From: Chloranthus sessilifolius
Taxonomy: Eukaryota; Streptophyta; Magnoliopsida; Chloranthales; Chloranthaceae
DNA length: 64,000 bases
NCBI GenBank assembly: GCA_021018995.1
Contig: CM037589.1
Coordinates: 6,959,001-7,023,000 of the forward strand
Reading direction: 5' to 3'
This document shows positions 17,009 to 49,947 of this stretch, one piece after another. Position 1 is the stretch's first letter. Each line of letters begins with the position of its first letter. A program made the translations under genes and the position numbers. A model generated the notes under the pieces. It was not told where the DNA came from. It ran no database searches and saw only the letters and a program-made list of their open reading frames with translations.

Positions 17009-17623
17009 TAATATTACTTAAAGTTAAGGATTTGGTTAGTGCTTTATGGCCCGCCCAGCTCTGGTGGAGTTTTAAAGTTCGAGTGGGTAGTTTTCCGAAA
17101 AGCTTAGGGATTGGACTGTTGCCCAAATGGTGATGCCCTCAAGCATACATGTAGCGCATATTAGGGGTTCAAATCTCATGTTTACCTATCAAAAAATGTT
17201 CTCCCCAAAACCACGAGCCTTTTAAGGTTGTCTAACCTAGAGGACTAAGTGAGGGCAATAGTATGGTCCAAGTAGTTGAACTACATGTGCGATTGAATTT
17301 ATTTTAAGGACCTTGGATATAAGGGAATCTTGTCTTTCATTGTTACTAGTTTCATAGGTTGACCAATAAGTTATTACATATCGTAGAGAGTATGACAACT
17401 CAAGAGTAGCACTTGGGGAATAAATCTCACACAACAAACCATTCATATTGAGTAACACATAGGGGAATAAATCTCACCCAACAACCCTTACCATATTAAT
17501 GTAATGGAGGAAGCAAACGTGAAGTGTGGAATCCACGACCTCAAGCCTCACAAAGGAGGGAGAATACCAATTGAGCTACCACTCGTTTAGTTCCCTTCTT
17601 CCCAGAAAGAACTCATTTATGTC
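17009..17623. other. SINE-like fragments, no gene
   Basis: Short tRNA-like pieces (GGGGTTCAAATCTCA near 17165; on the minus strand GAGCTCAATTGGTATTCTCC near 17570) suggest decayed SINEs. Nothing else is recognised. Confidence 0.4.
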
Positions 17624-19166: not shown

Positions 19167-19257
19167 ATTTCAAAATTCCTTCTAACTTTCAAGGGTTCTA
19201 AACCCAGTTCACTAGTTGCGAAAATATATTTTTCAAGATTTCAAGCTCCATGTCATA

Positions 19258-19641
19258 TAAGAAAATGTTGTATAAGAAAAATATCATATGAAAATATGGA
19301 TGCATCGCCGAAGGAAAGGTTGTATAAAATTTGTAGTGATTTTTGCTACATAGAACTTTTCACACATATGTGTTGCTGAAGCACAAAGGATCCAAGCACT
19401 CGAAGCTACGATAGATTCAAAATGGCTTCACACCTCGCTAGCCATGAGGGCGAGAAGCATTAGCATCCATTTGACTGCAAATTCTGCTTTTACAAGTTCA
19501 TGTGAATCGGATTTGGCCAAGCATCAAAGGGAAGTGCATGATGGAAAGTATAAGGACGATCAGAAGGTTAAAGTAGGATCGGAGGAAGAGGAAGATGAAA
19601 TTGAATTACATTTTAGGAAAAGGGATGATGAAATTGAATAA
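19258..19641 (+). pseudogene. C2H2 zinc-finger gene fragment, decayed
   Basis: Pieces of tandem C2H2 fingers are readable in shifting frames. One has FDCKFCFYKF followed after a frame change by ESDLAKHQREVH, the classic C-x2-C ... H-x3-5-H finger with the host-type SDLxxHxxxxH core. Upstream, ERLYKICSDFCYIELFTH and HLASHEGEK look like a neighbouring finger and linker. At least two in-frame stops (near 19473 and 19502) and one shift (about 19500) break it. An acidic tail (SEEEEDEIE) ends at a stop at 19641. It follows a solo LTR directly, so an insertion may have cut the gene. The parent gene is unknown. Confidence 0.6.
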
Positions 19642-19904
19642 TTTTTTGTTGTTTTTGTGTTTACTGTGTTGATTGAACAAACAAAACAGTACTATCTTCT
19701 GAATGTTGATTTTTCAAAATGGAAATGTCAACTATGTCGTCATCTTCAACCCAGAGAAAACTGAAACACCAAATTGGAAGAGACCATTAGACTTTAGAAG
19801 ATCGAATCTGACGAATGCATTTTGATGAAGTTCTCTTCAAAAAACTAGATGTAGCTATCTTTCATAGGTCAAATACGCATAAGTCAAAATCTAGTAACGT
19901 TTCA

Positions 19905-20265
19905 ATCATGATTTTAAATATCGGCAATATCCAATACAATTGATAGATATGTATCAGGTTAGCCCCATTCGATACGAATCTATGCTCTGACTTCATATAT
20001 ATGAGGTAAAATCAGGTCAAATATCATACCATATTGGCCCATGTCGGGTCATATCGACTGATTTATATCAGACAACATATTATAAATGTTTTTTTTGCAA
20101 TTTTTTTTTATATTTTTATATATAATCTATTATTCTATAATTTAAAATATGTGCCTAAATATGGATTGATTTTGTCGATCCGTATACGATATATCAGATA
20201 CATAGCGGCTTGGGGCCCAGCTCCTAATGTTGATATATATTGGACTTTAAATCCCTAGTTTCAAC
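19905..20265. repeat. Dispersed TATCGG/GATACG repeat
   Basis: Phrases AATATCGGCAATATCC, GATACGAATC, CCGTATACGATATATC and TATCGACTG belong to the same family as 8290-8910. The central AT-rich spacer reads TTTTATATATAATC. No coding. Confidence 0.45.
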
Positions 20266-20907
20266 TTAATCATTGAATCAAAAGATATCAGATTAGACAC
20301 CCAAAAACTTTGGCTAAAATGATAAGTTAGTATTTTTTTATTCAATATTTATTAAAAAAATCAAATCGATAAAAACAATTTAGATCATATGGATTGAGGC
20401 ATCCTAAATTTTCGCCACCATCCGTCTCTTATGCGGTCTCTAATACTTTGTTATAAAATTGAAAAGTTGAGGCTAGCTGATTTTGGGAAAAATAATATTT
20501 TACCCATTTTGTAGTCAATCGGCTGAAAAAATTAAAAAATCACAACGTTTGAAAATTTTTTGAAAAAAACCTTCCATGAATTTTTTTTCTACAAACCCAT
20601 GTAAAGTAAATGAAAAATAAAAAAATTTCCTCCCTGTTTTGCCAAACAAGGCTTGCGTTTAAAAAAATTTAAACCCTCATATACATGGGAATTGACTTTC
20701 ACTGCTACCGCTTTCTTTCTTCTTTTTTCATGAATAATGGTAAAATTATTGCCAAGGACTCTGACCGTTGCCATGAAGTTGTCGCTGCATTGACCCAAAA
20801 TAAAATAATGGTTAAAAAATAATAATTAATGCCCTAAAGTTGACCTGAGAAAATGCACTGATAATTTTGAATTATGAATCAATGAAAGGTTCAAAATGGA
20901 TTGTCAC
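20266..20907. other. No gene recognised
   Basis: AT-rich intergenic DNA with A/T tracts and no recognised element. Confidence 0.4.
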
Positions 20908-21000
20908 TTTTTTTTGTTATAGCCATTCGACCGAGACAACCTCGAGAACTGAGGAGCAAGCACGCATACACATATGATAATTGTAGAGCAGCGTGAGGGA
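20908..21000 (-). mobile_element. tRNA-derived SINE, family 3, 3' fragment
   Basis: Matches the 3' half of the SINE at 16769-17008 (CGGTCGAATGGCTATAAC on the minus strand, with TGTGTATGCGTGCTTGCTCC). The 5' tRNA-like part is not recognisable here. Confidence 0.6.
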
Positions 21001-21456
21001 GATTAACCAGAGTGCTCTTAAATAAGAGAAATGCTTGACAATTTAGACAAAATGAGGTTACCCAGAGTGTTAGTGGTGTCACTCACACGAGGAGCTAATA
21101 CTAGCTAAGTAGCTCAAGAAATATAAAAATTAAAAATAAAATTGTTGAAAATCGAGAGTCAAAGAGGGTAGCTCAAAAGATTGGGTTAGCTATAAAACTC
21201 CGCCCAACCCAGCTCTTAAATATTAGGTCTAGGGCTAAATTATAATAACTCGACCCACTTTGACTATTTTAACGGTGTTAGATGATATACCACATTGTGC
21301 ACAATGTTAGCGCTCCACACTGGAACTCACCCTCTTTTAGAAACCTCTATAAATTCATTAACTCATCTTTTTCACTCTTTTCTTTTTGAGAAACTCTAGC
21401 CTCTCTCACCTTCTTCTTCTAAGAAACCTTAGCTCTCTTAAATCCTCTCCCAAAAC

Positions 21457-24036
21457 TGTAATAGCCCGAAAAATCACGCTAAACTATGACTTCGGGATCC
21501 GTGCCCGATCGGTCATAGGTTTGACCAAATGGAAGTCCAATAGTTAGCATGAGGTGTGATGAACGGATGAGATGTGATAAACTTAATGTCTATGTGGTGT
21601 GTGTTGTAAATGTGAAGTCGCATACACCTATCGCGGTGTATGTGTTTAACACACACAAGTGAGAAAAGGGATAAAAGGGTTTAATAACCCTAGAGGTGTA
21701 TTTTGGTTGTTGAAGGAGAGTAAAGAAGAGAGAGAGAGAGAGAGAAAAGTAAGAGAGGAGTTATTGCAACTAATTGGAGGGGGGATTCAAGAGATAAAAG
21801 CCGGATTCAACGCGATTTGGATCTGTTAGAGCCAAAGCTGGAAACCCTAGCCTTCCAACTATTTGATTGAAATCAACTTGAGATCTATTCAAGGTAAAAT
21901 TTTTGTAAATAAAATGCATAGATTATAGGGGTTAAGTTGTGATTGAATGTGGGTTAAAATCATAGGATAATGGCTTAGAAAAATAGAGGAAAAAGTATGG
22001 AAAAAGATTGGGAAGAACAGCTCGAAAGGGGCTGAATCTGACAATTTCGATTAATCGAAATTGGCCAGGAAGTTGAAAGGTCAGAGGACCCCGATTTCGA
22101 TTAATCGAATTTGATTTCGATTAATCGATTTGGGGATCGATTAATCGGAGGAACCTGGTGGACCCTGTGGGTTGGAGGAAATGACTTGAGGAAAAATCGA
22201 CTAATCGAAATGGGATTTCGATTAATCGATTTTAGTTTTCGATTAATCGATTTGGGATCGATTAATCAACTTGTGAAACTCGACTGTTCGAACTGAGGGT
22301 CGACTTTGCGAAAAGAAGAATTTCGATTAATCGAAATTGGATTCGATTAATCGAATGAAAACTCGACTGTTCGAACTGAGGATCGACTTTGCGAAAAGAA
22401 GAATTTCGATTAATCGAAATTGGATTCGATTAATCGAATGAAAACTCATTGTCAATCGAGGATCGACTTTGCGAAAAGGAGAATTTCGATTAATCGAAAT
22501 TGGATTGATTAATCGAATAAGCTCATTCGTCAACGAGGATCGACCTTGCGAAACAGAGAATTTCGATTAATCGAAATTACTTCGATTAATCGATATTGAC
22601 CTTCGATTAATCGATTTTGGAATTCGATTAATCGACTGAGATAAATTATGTTGACTTTTAGGTTTGACTTTAAGATTCTTGGAGGGTCTTATACCTTCTT
22701 TATTGCATCCTTTGTGATGTGTTTCACCTGTTATGTGGTACCATAGGTGGTCCGTGTGGACTAGTGCACAAGGAGCCACGTGGGACCTTGATGCATTGAT
22801 CAAATGAAGACTTGAGGTAGGGAACACCTTGAACATGTACCTTATTTTACAAGAGCATGTATGTAGTGATATAGAATTCAATTCAAATGTTTATTTCTTA
22901 AGAATTTGTGAAAAGTGTGTGTGTGTGACATCCATAAGAGTAATCATGATGAGCCATCCCCAGGGGATGAAGAAGTAAAGAGATAAGGGTATCAAGTATG
23001 ATGCAAGTAAATGGATACATCCCAGGGATGTATCCAAGGATTGAATCATGTTTGATAGGGCCTAACTGATATAAGATAGCACATTTACACGGTGAATAAC
23101 TATATGTAAGGCACCGATATTTTTATTATTTGAGGTTTGATAGGGTACCCCACCGACGTGGCGGGATATCCACGGCCCGACACGGGAGGATATCCAGATA
23201 TAGTAAGCACACCCCAGGGGTGTTGATTGAGACAAGTGAAACCCCGCCACCAATCCCCAGGGGAAAGGGGCTTGGGTACTATTGGTATTCCCAGGGAATA
23301 CGGTTAAAACTGTCTATATAGATGACGATGATGGGTATCTCATCGAGGCTCGATGCTATATTGCTCGGGGATTACTTAAGTTGAAAGTTTAAGTTTTGCT
23401 TTAGGCCTTTTCAGCATCATTCATGAGTAAATGAAAATACAAGTAATCAATAGTAAAACGAAATGCTTTTTACCTGTTTCATTAACAATCATGCATGGCA
23501 TATCATGGAATATATGTGAGTTATAATTTATATGTTCAACCGTGTTGTTCCCTATTGAGCTAGGATGTAGCTCACCCTATAGACTATACGTCGCAGGTCC
23601 ACTACTAGCGACTCTGAGGCTTGAGGAGGCGATCGTGAGTGTCGGACCTTTGGAGCCACCTCCAGAGGACTTCTTCTAGAGGACTCCGTTGTGCCACTTT
23701 GAGGGATTTTGGAGAGAGTTTTTGTACGGCTTGGTATGTCAAGCCTTGATTCTGTTTAAACCATGTATATATATAGATGGGATTATTCTTTTGGGGCGAA
23801 CCATCCGTGATGATTGCTATCATCGATGGTTCGGATCGGTTCTCCATTCATGTAGAGGCATGAGGGTAGAACTGTCTTTTGGAGAGTTAATTAATATAGA
23901 TTCAAATTCCGCAATTTCGTTTATTATTTTATTGCAATGCTTTATATACCAGTGTTCCGTGCTTAGCTAAGGGGCACGGTCAAGATGATCGTGCTGATGG
24001 CACGGGTTTCGGGGTGCCGAAATCCGGGCTGTCACA
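21457..24036 (+). mobile_element. Solo LTR A (Gypsy, Tekay/Del-like), nested
   Basis: TGTAATAGCCCGAAAAATCACG ... GGGCTGTCACA, 2580 bp, with a perfect 5-bp target duplication AAAAC (21452-21456 and 24037-24041). Homologous phrases are found in reverse in the solo LTR at 47389-49947 (GAGCTAGGATGTAGCTCACC, GAACCATC...GATGGTTC). No internal region is attached, so this is a solo LTR left by recombination. Confidence 0.85.
22045..22640. repeat. Palindromic TTCGATTAATCGAA array inside LTR A
   Basis: About 20 copies of the self-complementary word TCGATTAATCGA, many as full TTCGATTAATCGAA. Within 22290-22560 they are arranged in a higher-order unit of about 80 bp with the spacer phrase CGACTTTGCGAAAAGAAGAA. 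The array begins about 0.6 kb from the LTR start. Confidence 0.9.
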
Positions 24037-24514
24037 AAAACTCTCTAGCCTCTTCTCTCAAATCTCCTGCTCAACCACCGACAAGATCGAACGAGGACGA
24101 AAGAGAAGAAAGCTTGGATGAACCGACGCTTTGGGCATCGATCTCTTCAACCCGAATAGCCACAAGATCAATCATTCTCCCTTCAACAAGTAGGTACCCA
24201 TTAATCCGATCTATTCTTCTCAGATCCCATCACGTAGGATGCGTTTAATAGCGCATCGATGAGTTGAAAACTAATTAAACCCTAATATCTTGTAAATCTG
24301 ATAAATCTGCATAGTTAGTAATTCACCCTTCTATTAAAATTGAGAATCTATATTCTTGTAGTATCTTTTTAAATCTTCCTTTTGCTTGACTGCCGCAGGC
24401 GAACCACCGGTCGGATGATGCCGAAAATTAGTAGGGAGGTCCAATCTTACCCAAGCCCCAATTTTCGTGGAGAAATCTACCCCAAATCGATTGGACATGA
24501 CTAATCAATTGGGA

Positions 24515-24790
24515 ACAACGGACGTCCACATGTTTCAGAACGGACGTCCGTAAGCGTTAGGATGGACGTTCGTAAGCTTTAGGACGAACATTCATAGTTT
24601 GTGTACTCCATTTTCGTGCTCGACAGACATCCGTGCATTCAGGATATACGTCTGTAGTTTGGGTACTCCACTGTCATGCTCGACCGGCATCCATGTATTC
24701 AAGACGGGCGTCCATAGTTGGGATACCCTACTGTCATGTTCAATGGACGTCTGTGGATTCAAGACGAACGTTCGTGGTGTCAGTGATGGT
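24515..24790. repeat. Degenerate GGACGTCC array inside the outer LTR
   Basis: Repeated words ACGGACGTCCGT, GGATGGACGTTCG, GACGAACGTTCGT. From 24595 there are about three ~60-bp units with the phrase GGGTACTCCACTGTCATGC. Open frames across it on both strands are artefacts of the repeat. Confidence 0.75.
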
Positions 24791-24899
24791 TGGACTCGAT
24801 TAGGACCTGATTCAGGTTCAGTATTTCGAATCATCGGTGTCTTATGGTAGAGTATCGAGTACTCTACCCACCCACTACTGTATCATGACCAAAATTTTT

Positions 24900-26025
24900 A
24901 ATGCATATTAATATTGAATTGAGGTCTTTTGATCAATATTCATGACAAATTTAAAAACTTATAATCACGATATCTTTTTATTTATTTATCCGTTTACAGT
25001 ATATTATATATCAAATTTTATCACCTCGACGGGATCTTCACGATGACATAGAGACATTAAGATTTTGATGTCATCTGTGAAGTTAAACTCTAACCTTTCG
25101 TGTTTCTTGATTACGCGTACACTAAGAACTATATATATTCTATATCTGTATTGATGTACTATATATATATATATATATATATGATTTTATTCATCAACTA
25201 AAATAAGACTATATTTCTGTCATTATTACGGTGTACGTTTTAAAAGCTAGGTCATGTATGTCAATGTATGAGATCACGCTTACGCTTGGGCGTGGTGATT
25301 CGCTGAGATAGTATAGAAGTGGGGATCACACCGTATTCACATGTCTTACAACTCATGATGATATAGAACATCATGACGAGTGGAATAAGATATGATACTC
25401 AACCTTTAAGCCTTCATCATGGTGGGGTTCCTTTCATGGTCACATGAAATTCGGAATGTAGGCATCCATGTATGGATGTAATACCTTTATGGGAGTATGG
25501 GCTGTCACATGAAGTACATCCAGGTTACTAAGGAACCCGTCCCTAGAAAAGCATGGTTTAGTTAAGCTTATCACATCATGGCACAGTCTGGATTCAGGTT
25601 GTATGATAAGATAAGATACGAATATAATAAGATATCGTTATGTAAGCTAACATAAGATTAATAATTTAAGTTTGTATGTGTCGTTCCTTGCGTAGCCACC
25701 GTGATGATTTAAGTTTGTATGTTGTTCTCGCCTTTAAAGACGAGTACGCTTGTCAGGCGCTCCTGAGACTAGATGGGTGTATGATATGATTTGATATGTT
25801 ATGATATGGAGGGGTGGTATGTTATGGTGGTATACTACTATAGTCCCTCATATGGTAGACTCGAGCAGCGACTATGGCACAGGTCGTATTAAGAATAGAA
25901 GTAAGTATACGCCTAATCGGTCTCCAAAAGAGGCCAATTTAAGTACCCAAAATAGTATTTTATGATCTTCAAACTAGGTAATTACTAATGATTTCTATAG
26001 TTTAGTGGATTATGGGCAGATTACA
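24900..26025. other. Body of the outer LTR, noncoding
   Basis: No gene. Holds a (TA)n run at about 25160-25181 and several GATATGATA words. The sequence belongs to the outer LTR. Confidence 0.5.
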
Positions 26026-26030
26026 AGTTA

Positions 26031-28090
26031 TTGATAAAACGCGTCAAAAGAAGGCAATAATCATGGATTCAATGCAACAAGATTGTCGAACCAAGAAGGA
26101 GCTCCAAAAGAGCGAAAGATGTGACGAGCATTAGTCAAAAATCACTTGGTGGCAAGCAGTAAAAATTGATTGCAGATAAGGAAATAAAAAGGCAAAAGAA
26201 TTCAATTAGAAATTAAGAAGAAATATAAGGAGACCCGCATTTGTGGCCGCAAGCCCACTCTCGTGGTTGCAAGAATGGACCCAAAAGTTTTGCTTTAAGC
26301 GCTCTGAATGCTCAGATATGCGGGGAGATGCCCAGAATTCTATATTTTTATATTTTGCTTATTAATAGTACTTTGTAATTAGGTTAAACTATTTTTTCTT
26401 AAGCTTTTTCTCTTTTTTATTTTAAGGGAGAACTTGGAAGTCTTTCAATAGTTGTAGAGGATTTGAGTTTTTTACTTAAAGATTCAACAATTAATATTGA
26501 AATATTATGTTGGTGACATCGGATCCGTGTGTGATGCGTAGATCGGAGCTGAGAGGCTAACTCTCTTGTTCAAAGAGAAAGTGAATCCTAGATAAGTAGA
26601 TAATTTCCTTTCAGTTTATCATTCTTATTTGAATATTGAATCATGGGGCTAGGTAATTCTAGATGAATATTATACTTCCATTGAAAATCTATCTATAGTC
26701 ATTGATCTTGTAGATTAATGAGCATAAAAGGGTTATCTAGTAACCTAGATTGGTCTTGTAGATTAATATAGGATGTCGTATGATTGATTAATATGCTATA
26801 ATTGTTTATTCATGATATGTTATACCTTGTGCATGACTCATGTCATTCGTAAATGCATCATAGTAACTAAGATAATATATGCGTGGATCATTAATCGTAT
26901 TATTTTTGAATTATTTTGCTTATAGTAAAATAAGGGTAGATATTAATTGTTTATTATTGATTCAATTGAAGGGAGTGAATCTAACTATTCTAGGGTGTAA
27001 CTCTATCCTTGAATGCCATCATCTTTTTTTCATTCTTTAATTTCGAGTCATTTTTGTTAATTGTTAATCTTTCATTTTAATTTATTGAGTAGTGTTAATT
27101 TCACCATCAAACATTTTCATCCTTAGTCAGGGGCGGAGCCACGTTATGACTTAGGTGGTCAATTGACCACCCAAACTTTCTAAAAATTTGTTATTAAGCT
27201 TTAAGTGTCTTAATTTATAGTAGTAGATTTTCATCCATCCAAAATTATATTGACCACCTAAAATTATTTAAAATCTTCAAACAAACTTTTTTATGGTATT
27301 TCTTTTCATAACAAATATTTTTTCTTTAATTTTTTTAACTAAATCCGACAATTTTGGCCTATTTTTTAGCTCCCCTCCATTTATTTAGGTGTTCGAACTT
27401 ATTTTCGGAGAGATTTCTCTCATAATGGGCTCCACTATGTTGTAGAGCTGCATACTCATATTTATGGTATTAAGCTCTAATATAATTACTTTAAAAAATT
27501 AAGTAATTTATTACACATAACAAAGTTTGAACCTATAACCTAACGTTTAGGGAATACTAAGTCTACCACTAGAGCAATTCACTAAGATATGTATAGAGCA
27601 TAAAAAACTTAATACATATATAATTTTTAAAAGACATCAAAATTATTAATTAAAAAAATATCGGGTCTTCCCGTTCATCATCGGGATATGTTCAACAGCT
27701 TCGATGGTCTCATGGGCTCCCTACAACGTATTGCCATATCATCCTACTCTTTGGAGGATGACGACGAGGATGATGCTACCTCGTAGTCATTCTTCGAGGA
27801 AATTTTGAATTAGACCAATTTTATTGGAACGGCCTAATCGATATGCATATAATTTTCTTTTATTTCGTTTGTAGATATTTTCATTTTTTTAGCGTTTGCT
27901 TAGAAAAAAAAATTATACAATTTTCCAACATTAATTGATTAGATGACCACCTTATGAAAAAATTCTGGCTCCACCCCTGACCTTAATAGAAATTAGGTTT
28001 AACACTCTTACGAGTTAGTAAATTTACTCGCCCCCTGTGGGTTCGACATCTGTAATACTTACCCTTATTCCACGAACTTATGCACTTGCA
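26031..28090 (+). mobile_element. Solo LTR C (Gypsy, Tat/Athila-like), nested
   Basis: Runs from TTGATAAAACGCGTC to TATGCACTTGCA, flanked by perfect 5-bp copies of AGTTA (26026-26030, 28091-28095). The CCCCCTGTGGGTTCGACATC phrase near its 3' end is typical of Tat/Athila LTRs. About 1.2 kb remains after removing the hAT insertion at 27128-27979. No internal region adjoins it. Confidence 0.7.
27128..27979. mobile_element. Non-autonomous hAT element (CAGGGGCGGAGCC ends)
   Basis: Inverted termini CAGGGGCGGAGCCACG and CTGGCTCCACCCCTG, with similar 8-bp flanks TCCTTAGT and ACCTTAAT. This end sequence is a widespread plant hAT MITE signature. It is 852 bp with no transposase. Being inside LTR C, it is the youngest insertion in the stack. 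Confidence 0.85.
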
Positions 28091-28906
28091 AGTTACAGTC
28101 TTTTTAAACAATCAACACTTATGCGATGTACAAAGACATTTATCGTTGTAATATGATATATTATATTTATGAGGTATGGTGAGGTACGCTGGGATTGGAA
28201 TGTGTCTAGATCATGGTCTTACATGTAGGTTAAGAGATGATTTTGATAATACGCATGACTTTAATATTTTTTTATTTCTTATATATTATCATATTATTAT
28301 TATCACTCACGAGATGCACCCACAATGCACCTAAGTGGTGTAGGGTGGATTGATAGTATATCGACTGAGTTACGTGTTGTTTAGCAACTCAACCCTCGTA
28401 TCATTTATTCTTTGTAGGTGATTTTATCGACGAAGTGCACGCTGGTTATCCCGATCTTGCGGATGCTGATTTTGTTAATCTCGTAGACACTCAGTATCAT
28501 GAGCCTTGAGAAGGCAACACTGTAGGACACTAGGAGGACCTCCATGCCGATTATTGATAACATTGTTTTAATATTGAGATTAGAATTTGCAATCTAGGCA
28601 GTTTATTCTTTCGTTTCATACAGTGATTGTTTATTTATAGTCTTGTACTTTTTATTTATAGTTGATCTTTATTTCCTTATTGATTAGTAAACATTTCATG
28701 GATTTTATCACATTTTATTTAATCTTTTTGGTTGCTCTAATATTTCATTATTTTATTATTAAATTCATGAATTTTGTAGAACCATATTAGCACGTGAAAA
28801 CTTTGATTATGTATATGTTCGTTTAACGTATCTGAGATGCGTGCGGAGCATGATTTAGAATTCTAGACCCTCGGAGTAGAGTAGAATTTTGGGTCGTGAC
28901 AAACAT

Positions 28907-29068
28907 CACTACAAAAATAGTGTTTCTCCGGCACTTGCTGTTAAGGCAATTTTTTATAGTGACATGACTAATAGCGGCAGTTTTTTATAGAGATGGCACT
29001 AATAGCAGCAATTTTTTGTTAATAGCAACAGTTTTTTACTGCCGCTAATAGTCTTATTTTTTATAGTG
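28907..29068. mobile_element. CACTA-type MITE, 162 bp
   Basis: CACTACAAAAATAGTG ... TTTTTTATAGTG with a 3-bp duplication CAT on both sides. Inner repeats of TAGCGGCAGTTTTTT and CTGCCGCTAATAGTC. Lies five bases from the right end of the outer LTR. Confidence 0.9.
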
Positions 29069-29177
29069 CATTGAGAGGCCTAAGGTAGGGCTAAGAGCAT
29101 TAAGCCCAATGAATTTAGGGCTGGGCTAGAGCAACCAATTAATCCAAAGACATAATCAAGAAACAATATATATATAT

Positions 29178-29540
29178 GGGAGCCGGTTAGGTCTTCCAAT
29201 GGAGGACGATTACCGTCCTCCAAGATACACATGGAGCTCCATGTGGCATCCAAAATACTATTTTGGTGCTACGTGGAGCACAAGTGGACGGTATAGATCA
29301 ATATTAAAAAAGAAATTGAAAAAAACTTTTTAAACCCACAAGTCAAAGTTTGACGGGCATTGGTCCACATTCCACAGTTCAAAAAATACACAGTGGAGAT
29401 GAGTTTTCAAAAAAAAAAAATTCAAAGATGATCTAAACAATGCACCCGAGCTCCACGTGGCATCAAAATAATATGTTGACTGTCACGTGAAAGCTTGGAA
29501 AACGGTGACCGTCCTCCCATGGAGGACGGAGGCCTTTTCC
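29178..29540 (+). mobile_element. Micron-like MITE inside a TA microsatellite, copy 2
   Basis: GGGAGCCGGTTAGGTC ... GGAGGCCTTTTCC, 363 bp, flanked by (AT)n on the left (29166-29177) and (TA)n on the right (29541-29559). The reverse-orientation partner is 7579-7930. Contains CTACGTGGAGC, CTCCACGTGGC and TGTCACGTGA ACGT cores. Confidence 0.75.
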
Positions 29541-29562
29541 TATATATATATATATATATTTG

Positions 29563-29745
29563 GTGGTCACATGCATCTCACGTGCAAAGCTTAGCTTTGC
29601 AGTTGTTACTTTTGTCTTTATCTAGTTGACCAAGATAGGTTTGCTCATCCCAATTAGTTGTGCTAAATTCTTTTTAAGGAAAAAATTAAGATTAGTTGGC
29701 AACTTGGCATGCTTATGCATATTAAATTAATCTCGTGTAAACTAT
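29563..29745 (+). repeat. Direct-repeat segment, left copy
   Basis: TGGTGGTCACATGCATCTC ... TATGCATATTAAATTAATC is repeated with changes at 31464-31675. The hAT element at 30225-31026 lies between the two copies. Confidence 0.6.
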
Positions 29746-29764
29746 TTTTGCAGTAATTTTTTTT

Positions 29765-30216
29765 TCTTTTTTCGATCGGGAATATTCAGCCTCTTAGAAT
29801 TGCTGATTAAGTCTTCGGTTATGTTTAACTAATGCACATCACACTACCATTTAGTACAGATAAATTCCTGCGAATGGCAAATAAGGGGTGAGATTTGAAC
29901 TCAAAATCTCTGCTTGATACATGATTCTGGCCATCGCATCCTATTGGGGTCTTTTTTTTTTCAGTTTTTTTTTTTGGGGAGGATTGGGGTCTTTTTTTAA
30001 ATAAGTTTAGAATAAATTTAAGTGGGAGACACATAGCATTATGAGGTTTTAGCCCCCATTATGAGACTAATAGTCTTTTTCTTTATCCAAATCTATGACG
30101 ATTAAGTCCCAAATTTGCGGTAATTTAAAACAATAATTAATATCTTTCGTTAGCCCCCACTAAAAGAAAACCTCGGCTACGGCTCTGGTTGGAGACTGCC
30201 TATTTCAAATTTGGTA
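29765..30216. other. Possible SINE relic, otherwise unassigned
   Basis: On the minus strand, GAGTTCAAATCTCACCCC near 29892 resembles a SINE B-box, and AGAGGCTGAATATTCC near 29785 recalls the 3' end of SINE family 1. The match is weak. The remainder (29960-30216) shows nothing. Confidence 0.3.
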
Positions 30217-31839: not shown

Positions 31840-32204
31840 AAGGGAAATTTATCTGATCGGCCCTGTCAGATATACCTTTTACGTCAGAGGCCCTGTGGTT
31901 TCACCTTTATCTAAACCGACCAGCTCCAAGCCTAGCCGACCCTAAGGAGAGTAAAAAGTTCAAATTACCCCCTTCTATGACTTTCTTTAACCCACAAAGC
32001 ATCCTCTTCTTCCTCATTGTAATATGCTAAAAAGTTAGAGGTGGGTCAGGTCACAGGTAACGACGTCTTCTTCCTTAATCTGATATGCTCTGATCTGCTA
32101 TTTTGAAGAAGAAAACAGAGGCTTGGGAGAAGAAGTCATGCATTTCTCCATTATGAGAAGAAGACTCTGCAGTTTACCCTTGCAACGCGAGGTATCTTAC
32201 ATAA

Positions 32205-32325
32205 ACCCCATTTTCAGTTTATTAGGGTCTCTTAATTGGGCAATATAAGAAATAATTTAAGTTTATTGATCCATATTTTCAGTTTGTTAGGATCTCTTAT
32301 TCGTGCAGTATAAGAAAGTCTTTGT
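32205..32325 (+). repeat. 65-bp tandem duplication near the MULE left end
   Basis: Two copies of TTTTCAGTTTATTAGGGTCTC / TTTTCAGTTTGTTAGGATCTC with matching AATATAAGAAA tails start at 32211 and 32276. This may be the subterminal or promoter region of the element. Confidence 0.7.
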
Positions 32326-32354
32326 ATCCTTGGATCATTTTTTAAAAAGTATAT

Positions 32355-32590
32355 ATCTCGATTGCAAATATAATCGTCATCGACTTTATATACAGTCGAT
32401 ATCGATTGCAAATATAATCGTTATCGACTCTATATTTAATCGATAACGATTGTCTATAAAGTTGATGACGATTATATATACAATCGATATCGATTGTATA
32501 TAGAGTCGATGCTGATTATATTTGAAATCGATATCGACTATATATAAAGTCAATATCGATTGTATATATAATCGATTGTATATAGAGTCC
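32355..32590. repeat. ATCGAT minisatellite array 1 (upstream of transposase)
   Basis: About 11-12 units of ~20 bp built from a TCGATATCGA-like palindromic core and an AT-rich spacer such as CTATATATAG. Lies just upstream of the transposase ATG at 32643, in the promoter or leader. Confidence 0.9.
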
Positions 32591-32642
32591 TTTCTTTTTT
32601 GTTTCATCAGTCTTATACCCCTTCCTTCTCATTCTTAAACAG

Positions 32643-35370
32643 ATGATGACGGACGTGAAGATTCCTCTTCTTTGTCACTATGATGGCCTTCTTGTAAACG
32701 ATGATGGCTTGTATGAAGGTGGCCGGAGGAGGGTTATTAACATTTCGACAAGTATTTCTTATGAATAATTCATGAGGCAAATGTCTGCTGTCAATTTTGC
32801 GAGGGCGGATGAAACAGTTTCCACAAATTTTTATATGAAGATAATGAATATCCCTGTGGTTGCCGACATTTTGGACGCTGATGATTTGGCCACCCTATTT
32901 ACGTTTTATAGATCCGGGGTGGACGTCATAAAGGTATTCATCATTAAGGAACCGTCATCCTTCCAAGTCGAAGTTGAACAAGTAGATCTTGGCGGGACTG
33001 AATTTCAGCCATGTAAGTTTGAGGATGAAACTGTATACGATACCGTCCCGTTAGGTGATGATAGCGATATTACGGCGAACATGACTGCCAAGAAAGCAAC
33101 TTTTGATTTAAACGATGCTCCGATTGAATCGTATGATAACCCACTAAAATACATGCATGGGCCACAACAATGTAGTCAATGGTTAGACTATACTTCAGAA
33201 CGGGCGGTGGATACCGACAATTTCAGTCATATCTTCCCCGGTGGATGGACAACTTGGTTTACTCATGAATTATGTTCTACCATGCCATCGATGGGAATTA
33301 CCGGAGAAACTCAACCCCATGTCCATACACATGAGCACCCCTTCGGTGAAGGGCCTAGTCAACCACGCCATTATCGATTCGGTGAAGGATCTAGTCAATC
33401 ACATCAGAACCCCTTTGGTGAAAGATCTAGTCAACCACCTGAGAACACCGCTAGTGAATGGTGTAGTCATCCTCAACCCACTAATGAGGATACCTTAGAA
33501 GAAGATTATGAAAGCGAATAGGATGGGTTTATAAAAGAGGATCCGAAAATTTTTGTGAGAGACAATGATAATCCCCTAGTAGACGGAGATTACGAAGTGT
33601 CAGAAACATCGGGCGACTCCTCCGATGAAGAGGTGAAAACTGAATATCAGAATTGGACGTTTAAAGTTAAAGAGATCTTCCGAGACAAACAAATATTTTA
33701 AAGAGCATTGAAAGAGCACGCAGTGGATAAAAACTTTTAAATTCGACCTGTGAAAACCGCTAGTTATCAAGTGACAGCCAAATGCTGCGAACCCGATTAT
33801 TCGTGGCGAATACATGCGTCTAAATTGACTGGGTTCGATTCTTTCCAAATCAAGACATTCAATAGTACTCACACATGCGGGGCTGCTAAGATCGGACCGC
33901 ACGATCACCGTAATGCAATAATCTCCTTCGTAGCCAACTATGTACGGGATAAACTTATGGAAGGATTCGACTACACACCGGCGTCGATAATGTTTGATAT
34001 TGTAAAAGCTTATAATGTGTAAATCTCATATGCAAAGGCTTGGAGGGGAAAAGAACTTGCCCTTAATGATATTAGAGGCAGTTGGGAATGACAATTTGTA
34101 GATCTACCGGCTTACGTGAAAGAGATGAAAAGGGTAGATCCTAATGTACAAACATCCTTTCAACTTACGCTTGACGGTAAGTTCCAAAGATTTTTTTAGA
34201 GTTTTGGCCTGTGCATCGGAAGCTACCGCAATATACTTCGTCGCATATTGCTTGTAGACGGCACACACCTACGAGGGCGTTTCGAAGGAATCCTACTTAT
34301 CGCCTCGACGCAAGACGGTAATGGTCATATATTACCGTTAGCATTTGCCGTCGTCGAGTTAAAAGAAGAGGATACATGGATGTGATTTCTTGAACGGGTA
34401 GGTGCATTCGTGATCGGTGGGTTTAATGAAGATTTCATTTTTATCATTGATAGGTCGAAGGGTTTAATAAATGCGGTGAAACAAATTTTTCCTAACGCAT
34501 ATCACAACTACTGCATGCGACATATGACACAAAATTTGACACACAAGTATCCCAAAAACAATGTGAAGGGTCTATGGTGGAAAGCTGCGCGTGCATATTC
34601 AGTAGAGAGATTTGATTATTTTATGAACGAAATGAAGAAAGATCCTGTTGATCCTCGAGCCGTACAGTATATTTCAAAAATAGACCCGAAGCATTGGGCA
34701 CACGCACATATGGAAGGAAGGCAGTACGATTCTCTGACTATGAATAATCCTGAAAGCTTAAATAGTGTACTAAAGATAGCTCAAGAGAGACTAATTATCG
34801 ACTTAATCAGAACTACTAGAGAGAAAGTCACCGATCATTTTCAAAAGCGTGAAGCGGATATACGAAATGAACCACCCTCCTGCAGCGAGCGAGCATATGA
34901 AGAAGGTGTTGCAATGGGCCGGTAGAAAGAGAGCTCAACCATACGGGCGCGATCAATTCCAAGTCAACTCCAAAAATTTCATTCATCATGTCGACTTGGA
35001 ACACAAGACATGTAGTTGCCGCCGTTGGGACATTCATGACTTGCCTTGCTCCCATGTCGTGGCGGCCATCAATCGGAGAAGTTACGACTACCATAACTTA
35101 TGTGAGAAGTGATTTTTCACCGCTTGCTTAAGACAAACATACGACGAGCAATGGCTTCCCACCCTCGATAAAAGCCAATAAAAGTTCCAAGCAGAGTAAC
35201 TCCCTTAAAATATGAAAGTGAGACCACCCTATAATTGTCGAAAGCAAGTCGGTCGTCCGAGGAAGAGAAGGATAAGGTCTAAAAGTAAGGTTAGGGTCCT
35301 ACAGTGTAGCAGGTGCATTGAATATGGTCACAATCGCAGGAGTTGCACGGCAGTGGGACCAATGGGTTGA
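32643..35370 (+). pseudogene. MuDR-type transposase, decayed
   Basis: DDE transposase that would cut and paste the element. Starting at the ATG at 32643, successive parts are: a PB1-like N-terminus (to about 32950), a MuDR plant DNA-binding domain (about 33640-33900; YSWRIHASKLTGFDSFQIKT, STHTCG), and the MULE catalytic domain with VDGTHLRGRFEGILLIASTQ (about 34255; first catalytic Asp), IIDRSKGLINAV (second Asp) and YHNYCMRHMTQNL. A SWIM zinc finger follows (CSCRRWDIHDLPCSHVV, about 35010-35065), then VGRPRKRRIRS and a CCHC knuckle CSRCIEYGHNRRSC at about 35300-35345. In-frame stops include those at 32766, 33519 and 34020, with others between 33690 and 34390, and a frame change near 34850-34925. 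Apart from that shift the reading is collinear, so decay is mainly by point changes. Confidence 0.88.
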
Positions 35371-35519
35371 TAGTGTATATTTTTAATAAAGATAGATGGA
35401 ATGTAAATGAGAATATATATTTGCTCATAAATTCAGAATTTAGATTTTTTTGATTCGTAATAGTTGTAATTTTACTGTACAGTTACACAGAAACATGTAA
35501 CCAAGAATGTACAAATAAG

Positions 35520-35745
35520 ACGTCAGCGACTGTATATATAGTCGTTGCCGATTATTTATAGGCGTCATCGACTATATTTATAATCGATAGCGACTCTATA
35601 CAGAGTCGTTATCGACTATATAAATAATCGATAACGACTCTATTTAGAATCACCATCGACTTTATATAAAGTCAATATCGATTCATTTTAGAATCGATAT
35701 CGACTATTTATATAGTCGATAGCGACTCTGTATAGGTCGATAATG
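35520..35745. repeat. ATCGAT minisatellite array 2 (between the convergent genes)
   Basis: About 11 units with cores TCGTTATCGA, TCGATAGCGA and TCGATAACGA and AT-rich spacers. Lies between the 3' ends of the transposase gene and the Ulp1 gene. Confidence 0.9.
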
Positions 35746-36777
35746 ACTTCTATTTCTACATTATAACCACTGCTACTTAAAAAATGTTTCAATTATATTA
35801 AAAATGTTTCATTTATAAAAAAATGTATCATTTATATTTACAACCACACTACTGCTGCGCCTCCTCCTCTTTGTCCTCCTCCTCAAATTCTCTTCCCCCA
35901 TCGCCGGTGTATGTCGTCAGTGTATGGCCAATTTCTGCCCTAAACCTATCCATATCTGATTGCGCGAAGTCAAATTTCTTTCCCAACATGAAGTACTCCA
36001 CATACTTCACCACAAACACCCCACAATCACTCGAATTGGACTATCGGGGAAGGGCTTTGATCCGGTAGTCACTAGATGACCAAGGATAGGTCTTCGTGTT
36101 CAGTGCAGTGGAGTCACCATACGAATATAAAACCGCGGGAAGGTAGTGGGTCTGTTTCAAAATAGAGGAATGTCAGAAATGTTAAGCTAACAATGATAAA
36201 AGATATGCTAAGCAAAATATCTTATCAGTGTTTTTAATTGGGTCAGATATCTTTCCTTAAAGGGCCTATTAAATATAGGGTCGACGACCATTATCGATCG
36301 TTCGACTACCTTCACGATCACAAGCGCCCAGTATAATGGTTGTTGGGAATGAATTGACATAAATATCAACAAAAAAGTAATATAATCTCAAAGGGTATGA
36401 TAGAAAAATTATAAAGAAAAATTATAAAGAGGTTAAAAGCATACTGTGCTGCACTCGTGAGCCTACAAATTTCGAAACTGATTGAAGAAGAAATTTTCCA
36501 TCAGCTTCTTGCCTTGGCTCTGTTCTTATTTATAGGCAGCCCACCGTTTAATTTGACTCTCGAACGATTCTTCATATAATCTTTCAGCGAGAAGAAACTT
36601 GTTGAAATCGTTCAGTTCAAAGCCCATGTACGTCAGAGTGGTAGGGCTCATAAGGAAGCTTTTGTGCTTTACATCAGGATGAATATCGTCGTCAATTACT
36701 TCCAAGTGTCTCAGGTAGGCGCCCATAATCTGAAACCAAAGCGGTTAGAGTTAAATATGCAGTTAGAGTTAAATAAT

Positions 36778-37015
36778 CGGTATCGACACATTTTATAATC
36801 GATGACGATGACTTATATAATCGATATCGACTCTAGACTGAATCGATATCGATTCGTTGTCGAGTATACAATTGCCATCGACTATACAATGAATCGATAA
36901 CGATTCATTGTAAAGTCGATAACGATTATATAAGTCATCGTCATCGATTATAAAATGAATCGATACCAATTCAGTGTAGAGTCGATAACTACTCTATTTC
37001 GAGTCGTCATGAGTT
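36778..37015. repeat. ATCGAT minisatellite array 3 (in Ulp1 intron 36730-37067)
   Basis: About 12 units with TCGATATCGA/TCGATAACGA cores. It fills most of a 338-bp intron bounded by GTAAGT (37067-37062) and TTTCAG (ending 36730). Confidence 0.9.
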
Positions 37016-37744
37016 TTAAATTGTCTATTTGTGCCTACAATAGCTACAATAGCTTTACTTTACTTACAAAATTGTCCATGTACTTCGTGCCCTCCAAACA
37101 TCTGAAAGATTGCACCACCAGCCTATAATTACCAATGGTGCTTACGTAGTCGCTGCATAAATGAAGGCCAACGTAACTAATCTTCGTAATACATTTATAA
37201 ATTTATAATAATAAAGTGAAAGATTTAGGCTTGTTCCTGGAAAGAATAACTTACTCGTCCTCCTTCTCAGGTTTGTTCCATATCTCTTGCATGTATTTCT
37301 GCTCCGCTGTCAGCAGAACAATAGCATCAGCAGCCGTAGACCCAGGCTCAGTGGTAGCATCAATCACCAGTCCAGGCTCAGCAGCTTTTCTTTCAATAGC
37401 CTTCTCGGTTATAGGCTTTTTTACCGTCGCTACCCTTCACTGTGTCCTAGGTTTGACGGCAGTTGTTTTGATGAGTTTCCTTTGCCTAGGTCTTAAGCGA
37501 GGGTCAATTTATTGGTGAGACAATTGGGAAGGGGTTTGCTCTTCACCAGCTGGACCTTTATCGGTTTGAGTCTCAGGCAACTCGTCAGCAGCTGCTGTCA
37601 CCTCACCCGTGGGAGGATCCTGATGCAGGGGAGTTGATGGTTTCTCATTGACCGGTGTGTCGCACACTTTCGATATCAGCTCCTCAATACCGCCATCCTG
37701 AACATCGAAATAATGGTGTAAAGTATTTTAAAAAGTCCAAATCA

Positions 37745-37925
37745 ATTTTACATTTAATCGTTCTCGACTGTATATATAGTCAATAACGATTCAATATACA
37801 GTCGTTATCGACTGTAGATATAGTCGATAATGATTTAATATACAGTCGTTATCGACTGTATATATAGTCGATAATGATTAAATATATAGTCATTATCGAC
37901 TCTCTATACAGTCGGTATCGATTTA
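37745..37925. repeat. ATCGAT minisatellite array 4 (in Ulp1 intron 37698-37970)
   Basis: About 9 units with TCGTTATCGA and TCGATAATGA cores and CTGTATATATAGTC spacers. The intron has donor GTATGT and acceptor TTCAG on the minus strand. Confidence 0.9.
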
Positions 37926-38609
37926 TGTTAACAAATTTGAAACACATAAATATCACATTTCAACACATACCTTAGGTATCGCCTCTAATAAATTTTCAAT
38001 AAGTTCTTTTATATACCCCTGGCCCTTTCTGACCAACGAGTTGTAGTAATTCAACTTCTGCAACTCCTCATCCCTTGATTTCAGCCGCTCATTCAAGGAG
38101 TTGCATAGTTTCTCTATGGAAGCACAACGTTTCGTCAGGACCTTATTCTCTCCATTCAAATCGCTCACTCTTTGGGTGAGCTTCAAGTTCTCCAGCGCCA
38201 AACCGTCGACCTCCTCAACAACTCATTGAAGGTGGACGGTTCAGCTGGGCTCCCTTTCGCAGCTAGGCTCTCATTCGTGGCCCCCCTAGTTCTCAGCCGC
38301 TCTACACCTGCATGGACGGGGCCCTTTTTCGATGACGGTTCTTCGTCCAATGTCGATTGGTCATCCCATTCTTCCTCGTCAATATTCTCGACCGGAATAT
38401 AATTTCTCTTCTTCTTCGGCCGCATCTCTTCCACAGTTTTCTTGACCGGTTCTTGAGGCTCTTTCCTCTTCCCCCCAACGACATTTTAAACCCGTAGATA
38501 TTCTTTTAAGACGGGTATCTCTAATTCGAAGCCAACAGACACGAGGGGAGCGCGAACCTTTTAAAAGAAAAGAAAATACGGTCAATAACACACTAAATTG
38601 ATCATATAT

Positions 38610-38935
38610 TCCAAATGTACAGTATCGACTATTTAATAAATCACAATCGATTCTATAATGAATTAATACCGACTATTTAATAAGTCGTTATCGATTCTAT
38701 ACTGCATCGCTATCGATTACGTACGGAATCGGTATCGACTACTTAGTAAGTCATTATCGATTCTGTAATGAATCGTTATCGACTTATTAAATAGTCGTTA
38801 TCGATTTTTTACAGCATCGCTATCGATTACTTAATGAATCGGTATCGACTACTTAGTAAGTCGTTATCGATTCTATAATGACTCATTATCGATTCTAGAA
38901 TGAATCGGTAAGTTGTTTTTTGAGTCGGCATCGGA
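38610..38935. repeat. ATCGAT minisatellite array 5 (in Ulp1 intron 38558-38978)
   Basis: About 15 units of 21-22 bp with cores TCGTTATCGA, TCGCTATCGA and TCGGTATCGA. Spacers (CTATAATGAA, CTACTTAGTAAG) are less TA-repeat-like than in the other arrays. Donor GTATGAG and acceptor TAAAAG flank the intron. Confidence 0.9.
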
Positions 38936-39864
38936 TCTCTCTACTCCTTTTATTTGAATTATTTAATAAACCTCATACCTTGCTATCTAACATCTGTCCG
39001 TGTGTGTAACCTCTGATCCTTGACTGCGCCCTGTCCGACCATTTCAGCAGTCGTGGGAAAGGGACCTCGAGGCCTATCTGGGAAGGCGAAATATATGGCA
39101 GCATCTCGTAAGCCCACCATTGAAGTACACATATGCATCCATATGTGTTGTACGTCTTAAGAGCTTTATCCATCTCTGCGGTCTTTCTATTCGCCGCGGC
39201 CTTCATTATATACTCGATCAAGTCGTGGTACACGTGAAGACCCCACGGAGTTCGATTAAAGTTCTCCACATCATTGATGAGGTCGATGTGGTCTTCCGAA
39301 AGTTGATGGTGGGACCCGGGAAAGAGAAATATACACAACACATATAGAAGGGACAACTTTACGAAGTCTTCATAACTTTCCGCTCTCCAAATTACAGCAT
39401 CTATATGAGACCGGAGAATTTTTTCAGGAGGCGTTCCACAAAAGTATTTGTATCGAATGGTTTATTCTTCCGGTGGTTTAACGACGAGTATACTTTTACG
39501 GGCCAACTTCTGACAAGGCCCAGATCAATCGATAATGTCCAACTTCCGAAGATAAACATCAGTCTTCTTGATTCGGAAGTGATTTTTTTCAATCCAAAAC
39601 GTCAATATCGCATCGACCACATCAGAAAGAAATTTCACACCATTAGGCATTTAAAATATTCCACCGAAAATTGAATCTCTCAGCAACTTCTTTCGAGTTG
39701 GGGTAACATTATCGTAGAGATTCGAAATTGCACTGGGGGAACACTTGGCAACAAGTCGGTGTACAACCATCTTGACTGCTAGTTGAAATGAATTGTAAAA
39801 AAAAAAAAAAGGACTGAGTCCCACACTAACAAGGATAGTTTAAATGTTAACTGAACTGTAATAT

Positions 39865-39955
39865 ATAAAACCGATAACGACTCTAAATGTAATCGATATC
39901 GACTCTACTTGTAATCGATATCGACTCTAATTGTAATCGATATCAACCATTATGC
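39865..39955. repeat. ATCGAT minisatellite array 6 (upstream of Ulp1 gene)
   Basis: About 4 units with TCGATATCGACTCTA and TTGTAA spacers, just upstream of the Ulp1 gene ATG at 39770. Together with array 1 it brackets the element. Confidence 0.85.
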
Positions 39956-40117
39956 CTTATTTTTCTTTTTGATACCTTTATATGCACCCACAAAATCTTG
40001 AAAAGCACCTACACTAAGACCCACTAATTGCTTTGAATCAAACGATAGAGATTGTTTTTTGTCTCAAACTTCCACACCATAGATCTTGAAATCATGGGGA
40101 TGTCATCATGGGCACTT

Positions 40118-47388: not shown

Positions 47389-49947
47389 TGTAACAGCCCG
47401 GATTTCCGTTTCCAGAAACCCGTACCGTTAGGATCATACTCTGGATGATCCCGGATCGATCACACGTGTCCGCGCATATAGCGGAAGCTAGGTGGACACA
47501 TCCGAGCAGCGGTATTCTGAGTCAAACAATTTCTATGCTAAACACACATCAATAATAGTAAATGGAAAGAAAACACACACATTCCCAAAAAGGAACCAAG
47601 AAGAACCATCGGTGATGGACGTACATCACCCAACCAATGGTTCCCGATAGTGGTTCCGAAATGGACTGTGGACTAACATAAAATAAGTAAATGTAGAACT
47701 ATATTTGTTTATACAAAGGTGGCCACCAGGCACACAGTAATCCAAAAGATCAAAAGTACAAAATGTCGGGTAAAACTCGTCGCTGACGTCCAAATCTCTC
47801 CTCGTCCCTCTGCCTCGGCCTCGGGATCCGGCCGATAGTCCGGGTCACTCTGCGTCTCGCTAACCTCGAAAAAAGATTTGAAAGCGGTGGTGAGCTACAT
47901 CCTAGCTCAGTAGAAGAATTTCAATTAATTTACATCTAAATTATTAAACATGATTGCAGAACATATCTTAGATCGATAAGTGAAACAAAACTGAACAGAT
48001 ATAGATTGATGCTCAAACATGCAGGAAATCAGAATGCATAACTGGCAAAAGTAAACTGAACTTCGGAATTAGCAAGATGCTATGCTTATTAGATTTAAAT
48101 GACTTAAATCATACATATCTCTAACTTAAGTAACTCCCGTGTATATATATCACGTGATAGCCAGATTTGTGCCGATAGGAAACCCCAACCAATCGTCGTT
48201 CAATGAACAATTTTCAGGAATGCAATAATAATGCCCCACACATGGAGTGCATATTTTGCAGAGGATTTTCAAGCAACTGCACATTGTGCAAGAAACGGAT
48301 ATACCGCCGAGTCGGTGGGGATCGTCTGAATATTAAACCTCAAATCAAATACATACTTATTACCTCATGAATCAGATTATCATAGCAGATTATCAGAGCA
48401 GATTATCAGAGCATATGCAAAGAACAGAAACAGATATCAGAATACGGGAATCAGAGTTTAATGCATATGCAGGCATGCTTTCGAAAATCAAAGATAGAAT
48501 ACAATGTTAAGATATCATGCAATTAAATTTAGATACACTTTAAGTTGAATTTTCCCCTACCTCAGATCAGTTTATCTTCGAAGCAATTCCAAAGCTTTTT
48601 CGACGTGTCAGGGTTTATTCTATACCATATGCACATTACATTAAGTGTTAGGAATGTCGGAGAACTACCCGGCACAATATCCGGGGTGTCTACTTCATGA
48701 AGTCAAGACAGGCAAAAACAGGGGTAAGTGATCGATCACCACCCACTGTAGATCGATCACCACCCACTGTAGATCAATCACCACCTTGGTGATCGATCAC
48801 CAACCTCCATATCTCTTCCTCAACACAGTCAAGGTTGATCGATCACCTCCTTGGTGATCGATCACCAACTCTTCTGTAGATCGATCACCACCTTGGTGAT
48901 CGATCACCACAGCAAGTTTCAAAAACTCCTCCCTCTGTCCACATTAATTTTTATACAAATTGATCGATCACCACCTTGGTGATCGATCACCAACTCATCA
49001 GAGATCGATCACCACCTTGGTGATCGATCACTAACTTTGTAGATCGATCACCACCTTGGTGATCGATCTCCACCTGAGCCTCAACTTCTCAACTCTCTGG
49101 GGTCTCGCTCCCCATAAGTTTATCTGATTGATCGATCACCCCTTGGTGATCGATCACCAACTCGATCGATCACCACCTTGGTGATCGATCACCAATGACA
49201 AGAAAGTCGCCATTAATGGAGTTCACCTTCCTTCCATTTTGCTCTCTCTCCATTAATGGTTGTGCAATCACCATTAATACATCATAAACACACCCTTTAA
49301 ACTACTCATTTAACCCTATTTAACACACACAACTCACCTTGTTCGTGGGTTTCGGGGTTCCAAGAATGACCAAAAGAGGGTTTCAAACCTAGATCTTGAG
49401 CTCTTCCTCGATCCGGATCCAAATGAAGCTCTTCACTCGTCGTCAGATCAAGGTCTCTCACACCAATCTTAAACCCCAGGTAACTCAATCACTTAGGTCT
49501 AGCTCCCCTAGCTTAGAAATCCCTCATTTTCTCTCTTGCTAACCCTTTTCTTCTCTCACAAGGGATCTCTTTCACACTTTCTTAGCACAATCTCCAACCT
49601 ATGGAGCACGTAGGGCAAGGGGATGAAGGAGAAGAAGAGTGGAAGTCTCTCCTCTCTTGTCTCCCTTTCCTTCCTCTATAAGCTACCTCTCAACTCAGAA
49701 TCCCTGTTTTGCCCTTGGTATCTGTTCCGGTGTGAAGCATGAACACAGTTGCTTCTGCGCAGCGTGTTCCACCTACCCTCTACACATCTAGGATCTATAC
49801 GAAATTTTACACGTGATCTCATCTCATCACAGTGCCACATTATTTAAATTAATATAACTCGAAAGTTTTTGAATCAACCTCGATTTCCGTACTGGGCACG
49901 TAGATCAAAGCAGTCAGGCTCGTGTTCTAATTTTCGGGGTCGTTACA
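47389..49947 (-). mobile_element. Solo LTR B (Gypsy, Tekay/Del-like) nested in the hAT element
   Basis: TGTAACAGCCCGGATTTCC ... TCGGGGTCGTTACA, 2559 bp, perfect 5-bp duplication ACCAC (47384-47388, 49948-49952). The family match with LTR A (21457-24036) is in reverse orientation: GGTGAGCTACATCCTAGCTC and the paired GAACCATC/GATGGTTC block. No internal region. It inserted after the hAT element. Confidence 0.85.
48725..49195. repeat. Palindromic TGGTGATCGATCACCA array inside LTR B
   Basis: About 18 full or half copies of the 16-bp palindrome, usually paired as GATCGATCACCACCTTGGTG followed by ATCGATCACCA. Measured from the LTR's own 5' end it occupies about 0.75-1.22 kb, matching the position of the different palindrome array in LTR A. 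Confidence 0.92.

Follow-up and report, generated by a model that had tools for sequence, protein, structure and literature searches.

The window, the whole 64-kb stretch of DNA that was analysed, is a section of contig C6 in a searched genome of 2.17 Gb and 32 contigs. The element of interest spans positions 31842-39947 and is a Mutator-like element (MULE) carrying a transposase gene, an Ulp1 gene on the opposite strand, and six arrays of a short repeat in its non-coding parts. Its features, with array coordinates that are approximate and limits set partly by eye, are as follows:

31842-32060, plus strand: left terminal inverted repeat (TIR) and subterminal region, starting GGGAAATTTA and matching the ends of relatives
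32358-32590, unstranded: array 1, 5' of the transposase, with a period of 22
32769-35370, plus strand: broken MULE transposase gene with DBD_Tnp_Mut, MULE and SWIM domains, in separate pieces
35521-35735, unstranded: array 2, between the convergent genes
35849-39839, minus strand: broken gene with a DUF1985/PMD-like part and Ulp1 (Peptidase_C48), in separate pieces
36769-36998, unstranded: array 3, within intron 36730-37067
37758-37921, unstranded: array 4, within intron 37698-37970
38613-38910, unstranded: array 5, within intron 38558-38978, whose donor site is conserved in relatives
38976-39461, minus strand: exon resembling DUF1985 (PF09331) and plant mobile domain (PMD, PF10536), with sub-cut-off Pfam matches
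39870-39947, unstranded: array 6, 5' of the Ulp1 gene and cut short by truncation of the element

Both the transposase and the Ulp1 gene of the window copy are interrupted by stops or frame changes. The transposase matches PF10551 (28.8 and 31.3 bits) and SWIM (39.3 bits) above the Pfam cut-off and DBD_Tnp_Mut (22.6 bits) under the cut-off of 25; the Peptidase_C48 match (E 1.8e-8) lies on the minus strand, in a gene convergent with the transposase, an arrangement also found in all five relatives that span both genes. By its transposase domains, TIRs and 9-bp target-site duplications the element belongs to the Mutator superfamily. The TIRs of the family are roughly 100-200 bp long and are present at both ends of L035, L037, L044, L045, L046 and L048. 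Target-site duplications were found in three of these six (exactly 9 bp in L035 and L037, 9-10 bp in L046), with no convincing duplication in L044, L045 or L048. A right-hand TIR was not found in the window copy, where homology to the relatives stops at about 39947. The KI-MULE (Kaonashi) label agrees with the convergent Ulp1 gene, but it is doubtful because KI-MULEs are described, in the available part of the source, as non-TIR elements (PMC2528002) and the family here has TIRs. Beyond the element, an open frame of 285 aa at window positions 53819-54673, with a Dof zinc-finger domain (PF02701, E 2.2e-33), is a host transcription factor gene.

The array unit measures 22 bp, in place of the approximately 20 bp first given for it, and its core TCGNNNNCGA lies inside a 14-bp palindrome, ARTCGWTAWCGAYT; the core is indeed palindromic, as had been noted, while what is conserved is the 14-bp palindrome. 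Higher-order units of 44, 66 and 110 bp also occur in the arrays. Within the 64-kb window, 22 of 23 TCGNTATCGA sites, 14 of 15 TCGATANCGA sites and 34 of 45 TCGNNNNCGA sites fall within 31842-39960, and among 8-mers in the window copy AATCGATA shows the strongest enrichment, with 28 occurrences vs. 0.85 expected (both strands counted). None of the 28 strict cores lies in the coding sequence of the window copy, and the three array-bearing introns (38558-38978, 37698-37970 and 36730-37067) have GT-AG borders on the minus strand, as judged from sequence alone. The sequence-only reading had described six arrays of one unit in the non-coding parts, three of them in introns with canonical borders and none in an exon, and that description is borne out, and indeed strengthened, here. 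Genome-wide, the pattern TATCGAN{11,13}TCGNTATCGA has 11,053 + 11,381 matches on the two strands, vs. 9 + 8 for the reversed control; these counts, together with the clustering of sites in the window, exclude a chance origin of the arrays.

The window also holds other palindromic arrays. At 48730-49195, and likewise at L042:2809-3239, the palindrome TGATCGATCACC is repeated with a period of 19-21 bp. The L042 arrays precede, by about 1.4 kb on the 5' side, retroelement frames in which protease, reverse transcriptase, RNase H and integrase domains are recognised. Because the motif recurs beside these retroelement frames, the TGATCGATCACC arrays probably belong to an LTR-type retroelement with palindromic arrays of its own, and a link between the MULE arrays and the other palindromic arrays of the window was rejected. 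At 22093-22635 there are TTCGATTAATCGAA arrays plus an 83-bp unit, and no frame of at least 110 aa was found near them within 17500-30000. Elsewhere in the genome, a 39-bp unit is repeated 8.5 times at L040:1-332; a DUF1985 exon lies about 7 kb away, with Ulp1-like exons between.

Twelve loci seeded by arrays were examined: eight of the first ten C1 clusters (the clusters at 3.40 and 5.22 Mb being outside the set) and four loci from a stricter pattern with 12 places. All twelve carry the TIR or coding parts of the family, and the possibility that arrays are common to the genome at large was rejected on that ground; the concern raised earlier that they might be equally common outside the element family is not what the examined loci indicate. 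Five relatives extend across both genes, L035-L037 found through their arrays and L038 and L039 through exon similarity, with both TIRs inside the examined stretch for L035 and L037 alone. Each of the five has arrays at all the places seen in the window copy: on the 5' side of either gene, in the spacer that separates them, and in the three corresponding introns of the Ulp1 gene. Conservation in introns and flanks, which the sequence-only reading had proposed to check, is thus seen in 5/5, and related copies carry the arrays rather than lacking them, though the shared positions may also be inherited by descent. L035 has one array more than the other relatives, of TCGTTAACGA type and located at L035:4950-5047 between the last two Ulp1-domain pieces, where the window copy is without one; the TCGTTAACGA-type variant pair occurs at 86 places genome-wide and at none in the control.

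The avoidance of coding sequence extends through the family. In the window copy and the five relatives, 0/184 strict cores touch coding sequence, defined as similarity to the window pieces, where 90.7 would be expected by length; with the relaxed core TCGN4CGA, two isolated sites fall inside transposase genes. The 29 exon-seeded partial loci have no cores in exons, and they have an array upstream of the Ulp1 gene in 28 cases (L026 being the one without), a first-intron array in all 29, and a next-intron array in 25 of the 26 that reach that intron (L024 being without). The splice donor of the first intron is GGTATGAGG in 28 of these 29 loci and GGTATAAGG in the other. The middle of the core varies with position in the element: it is ATAT in 47/80 outer cores vs. 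21/124 intron cores.

The spacing of the units is strict. Among core distances of up to 140 bp, 553 of 593 are exact multiples of 22, as counted over 33 loci (without L001-L004, L005, which is the window, L006, L010 and L040-L043; L006 and L010 were dropped as the same places as L038 and L039). Interior units were taken by position alone, from cores at 0 and +44, with the unit at +22 read regardless of its sequence, which gave 1002 readings (501 units on both strands) from 42 loci, again without L005, L006, L010 and L040-L043. All six fixed bases matched in 784 of the 1002, with ARTCGWTAWCGAYT as the consensus; the fixed core bases carry 1.6-1.9 bits each, and the eight spacer positions 0.1-1.1 bits. 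CpG transitions make up 166 of the 196 core readings with a single change (both strands; 83 of 98 units). In 29 loci, with array rates drawn only from units with intact neighbours, the two outer core bases (T and A) are changed in 1.0% of 678 positions, vs. 4.3% of 12,522 non-CpG exon positions, so constraint on the core is at least as strong as on an exon. CpG is kept at 89.2% of array sites vs. 84.0% of exon sites, and CpG decay is 10.2% in arrays and 9.8% in exons; since the decay in the arrays equals that in the exons, the arrays have evidently been methylated during much of the history of the family.

Arrays are also carried by copies that appear to encode nothing. L044, L045 and L046 have 1.2-1.5 kb between their TIRs, with arrays present and no match to any coding piece. 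The TIR search with L046 gave 3617 candidates, of which 40 were scored; six elements were drawn from these 40 with arrays ignored, and each of them has 4-11 TCGN4CGA sites and lacks any coding match, the TIR query itself having come from an array-bearing copy. L044, L045, L046 and L049-L054 are MITE-like, with the TIR common to the family and a core shifted to TCGATGACGA/TCGATGGCGA. In these nine non-autonomous loci, an ATGA or ATGG middle is found in 55/73 cores vs. 41/831 in 32 main-family loci (L004, L005, L006, L010, L036 and L040-L043 left out). Phasing is looser in the same nine loci (36/58), and TCGATGACGA pairs number 301 + 314 genome-wide vs. 0 + 1 in the control.

Among coding copies, the search with the DUF1985 exon gave 5559 candidates, and the 150 scored are all 83-100% identical, with none intermediate between this element family and other DUF1985 families. 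Five loci with DUF1985 exons of 56-71% identity retain the core, with 78/94 spacings in phase. At this divergence the frame of the core is unchanged and the middle bases alone shift, ATAC or GTAC middles occurring in 28/125 cores vs. 95/831 in the main family, a comparison in which the array sites are related by descent and independence is overstated. Among the loci compared, none represents a subfamily in which a truly different motif is paired with a matching protein.

An exon upstream in the Ulp1 gene has two Pfam matches that fall short of their cut-offs, to DUF1985 (E 3.3e-5) and to PMD (E 2.9e-7), the PMD match scoring slightly better. The DUF1985 score is 24.3 of the 35.1 bits required in the window and 21.9-24.9 bits in seven relatives, which match the same two families, likewise below cut-off. 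In a two-sequence comparison with L043, a place that scores 48.7 bits and so lies above the PF09331 cut-off, the DUF1985-like exon is 35% identical over 125 aa (E 4e-23), and a ten-sequence alignment that includes four other DUF1985 loci has 16 invariant columns. A DUF1985/PMD-like domain, weak in its Pfam score and unnoticed in the sequence-only reading, is encoded together with Ulp1 by one gene of the element. The fold prediction of the DUF1985 piece was too poor for use (mean pLDDT 46.4), and a search of solved structures returned two matches at E 0.39. At the Ulp1 alignment position that we take to be the catalytic His, the window copy has Tyr and 8/8 other aligned loci have His; the Cys is kept in all eight of these and the Asp in seven (not in L037). 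Counts of TCGN4CGA sites in four other DUF1985 loci from this genome are 0, 0, 1 and 2. A natural point of comparison is L041:4576-7914, where the transposase of another MULE and a DUF1985 gene also converge but motif arrays are absent.

Taken together, these observations favor a VANC-like self-recognition system, in which the DUF1985-Ulp1 protein would read the arrays of its own family, those of non-autonomous copies included; we put the probability of this at about 0.64. The protein is probably the reader of the palindrome because a related domain, the same placement of the motif and its restriction to one family occur together, and the DUF1985/PMD-like domain in the Ulp1 gene strengthens the analogy with VANC proposed earlier. 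The protein would bind the 14-bp palindrome ARTCGWTAWCGAYT, probably as a dimer, and palindromes every 22 bp (about two helical turns) would align the bound proteins along one face of the DNA, as the symmetry and the step suggest. Exons presumably cannot host such arrays, which would confine them to promoters, introns and the intergenic spacer. By analogy with VANC, binding would then strip or block silencing marks across the element, with the Ulp1 part perhaps removing SUMO from silencing factors (a guess from the domain alone), and relief of silencing would free both genes as well as the non-autonomous copies that hold only arrays and TIRs. We have counted against this reading the sub-cut-off DUF1985 match and the slightly better PMD score, the CpG decay, the failure to find a subfamily with a different motif and a protein to match, the poor fold prediction, the array-less L041 and possible descent.

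Subterminal repeats in CACTA and hAT elements serve as transposase binding sites, and the arrays might likewise be sites for the element's own transposase, acting in end recognition, synapsis or autoregulation. Such a role would suit their position near both ends of the relatives spanning both genes and their retention in non-autonomous copies, which need only the cis requirements of the transposase; it is harder to reconcile with internal arrays (those of the three introns and of the intergenic spacer) whose regularity is no lower, and with TIRs that form a separate end signal, and we consider it unlikely. Less probable again is a host reader of the arrays, some DNA-binding or insulator-like protein that the element exploits. 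Animal DREF and BEAF bind TATCGATA or CGATA clusters, and AATCGATA heads the enriched 8-mers of the window copy, but all 12 array-seeded loci belong to a family whose coding members encode the DUF1985-like protein, and we know of no plant host reader of such arrays.

Neutral minisatellite growth in the non-coding DNA of a single founder, passed on by descent, would explain the common positions, and the 44-, 66- and 110-bp higher-order units are indeed a sign of slippage or unequal exchange. Slippage would even out the whole unit, whereas the spacer varies far more than the core; moreover, arrays and phase persist at 56-71% DUF1985 exon identity, and arrays are found in non-coding relatives. 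We give this explanation very little weight, and just as little to the idea that the arrays mainly serve RNA, in hairpins, splicing or siRNA production, for example. Palindromic arrays, three of them in introns, would fit such a function well enough, but arrays also lie 5' of both genes, between the genes and in elements without a detectable coding part, and what is conserved is a palindrome of double-stranded DNA, spaced by helical turns.

The VANC-like self-recognition favored above also has a more specific form, which is possible but on balance doubtful. It would be an independent DUF1985-Ulp1 anti-silencing line in a TIR-bearing MULE, with a dimeric reader on a 22-bp-phased 14-bp palindrome and thousands of copies probably spread in one genome, where MITE-like copies with their own version of the site (TCGATGACGA/TCGATGGCGA) would parasitise the reader or be read by the protein of another subfamily. 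If the VANC-like reading is true, sequence-specific anti-silencing would be carried beyond Arabidopsis to a plant whose large genome offers very many targets, and its motif could be read straight from the sequence. Now that a likely reader domain can be named along with its target and the spacing rule, the recognition of DNA by DUF1985, the task of Ulp1 and the way in which non-autonomous copies ride along become directly testable questions. Phased palindromes limited to the non-coding parts of one transposon family also suggest a general route for finding such systems.

Sasaki et al. 2022 reportedly found that VANC systems diversified in eudicots as DUF1985, DUF287 and Ulp1 were acquired or lost; motif sequence, density and helical periodicity are said to set their specificity, and non-autonomous copies to be acted on as well. 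In the available parts of the papers, VANC proteins are described as carrying DUF1985 (PMC5735166, Fig. 5 legend) and binding motifs that are tandem in non-coding parts (PMC5735166), and Arabidopsis VANC21 and VANC6 as recognising tandem short motifs of their own element family, with consequent loss of methylation (PMC5735166, PMC10398659). A 2026 review, in its available sections, has Ulp1-carrying VANC genes (KIU) acting on specific KIU-VANDAL motifs, citing Sasaki et al. 2022, and dates the capture of Ulp1 to the separation of monocots and eudicots (PMC13317346); excerpts of meeting reports mention unpublished VANC structures (PMC8756742, PMC12859917). The element class had initially been thought new for such a system, a claim that is not supported, since the review, in those same sections, already credits motif-specific anti-silencing to Ulp1-bearing VANDALs (PMC13317346); the system is thus not new in kind. 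As far as checked, the motif, its strict phasing in a TIR family and the shifted core of the non-autonomous copies are new. The literature searched, mostly non-subscription and seen as the top matches of long lists, yielded no report of such arrays in Ulp1 MULEs outside Arabidopsis, and a search by motif letters gave no transposon paper by title among the matches listed.

Compared with VANDAL21 and VANDAL6, as these are presented in the portions of the literature available, the element here is likewise a MULE with a DUF1985-type protein and a family-specific motif in tandem, and its motif repeats are likewise found in introns and in intergenic and terminal non-coding regions. The motifs themselves are different, YAGTATTAY for VANC21 and AGTTGTCC/AGTTGTAC for VANC6 vs. 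ARTCGWTAWCGAYT every 22 bp in the present element, which also differs in having Ulp1 in the same gene as the DUF1985-like domain. Motif binding and demethylation are described for the VANDAL systems of Arabidopsis and are predictions for the present element, and the TIRs of VANDALs are described as degenerated, whereas this family has TIRs. With the KIU and Kaonashi MULEs it shares an Ulp1 gene reversed relative to the transposase. KIU-carrying VANDALs recognise motifs in other KIU-carrying VANDALs, according to the sections of the review available (PMC13317346), while in contrast to KI-MULEs, which are non-TIR by description, the present family has TIRs of about 100-200 bp and a set of MITE-like derivatives.
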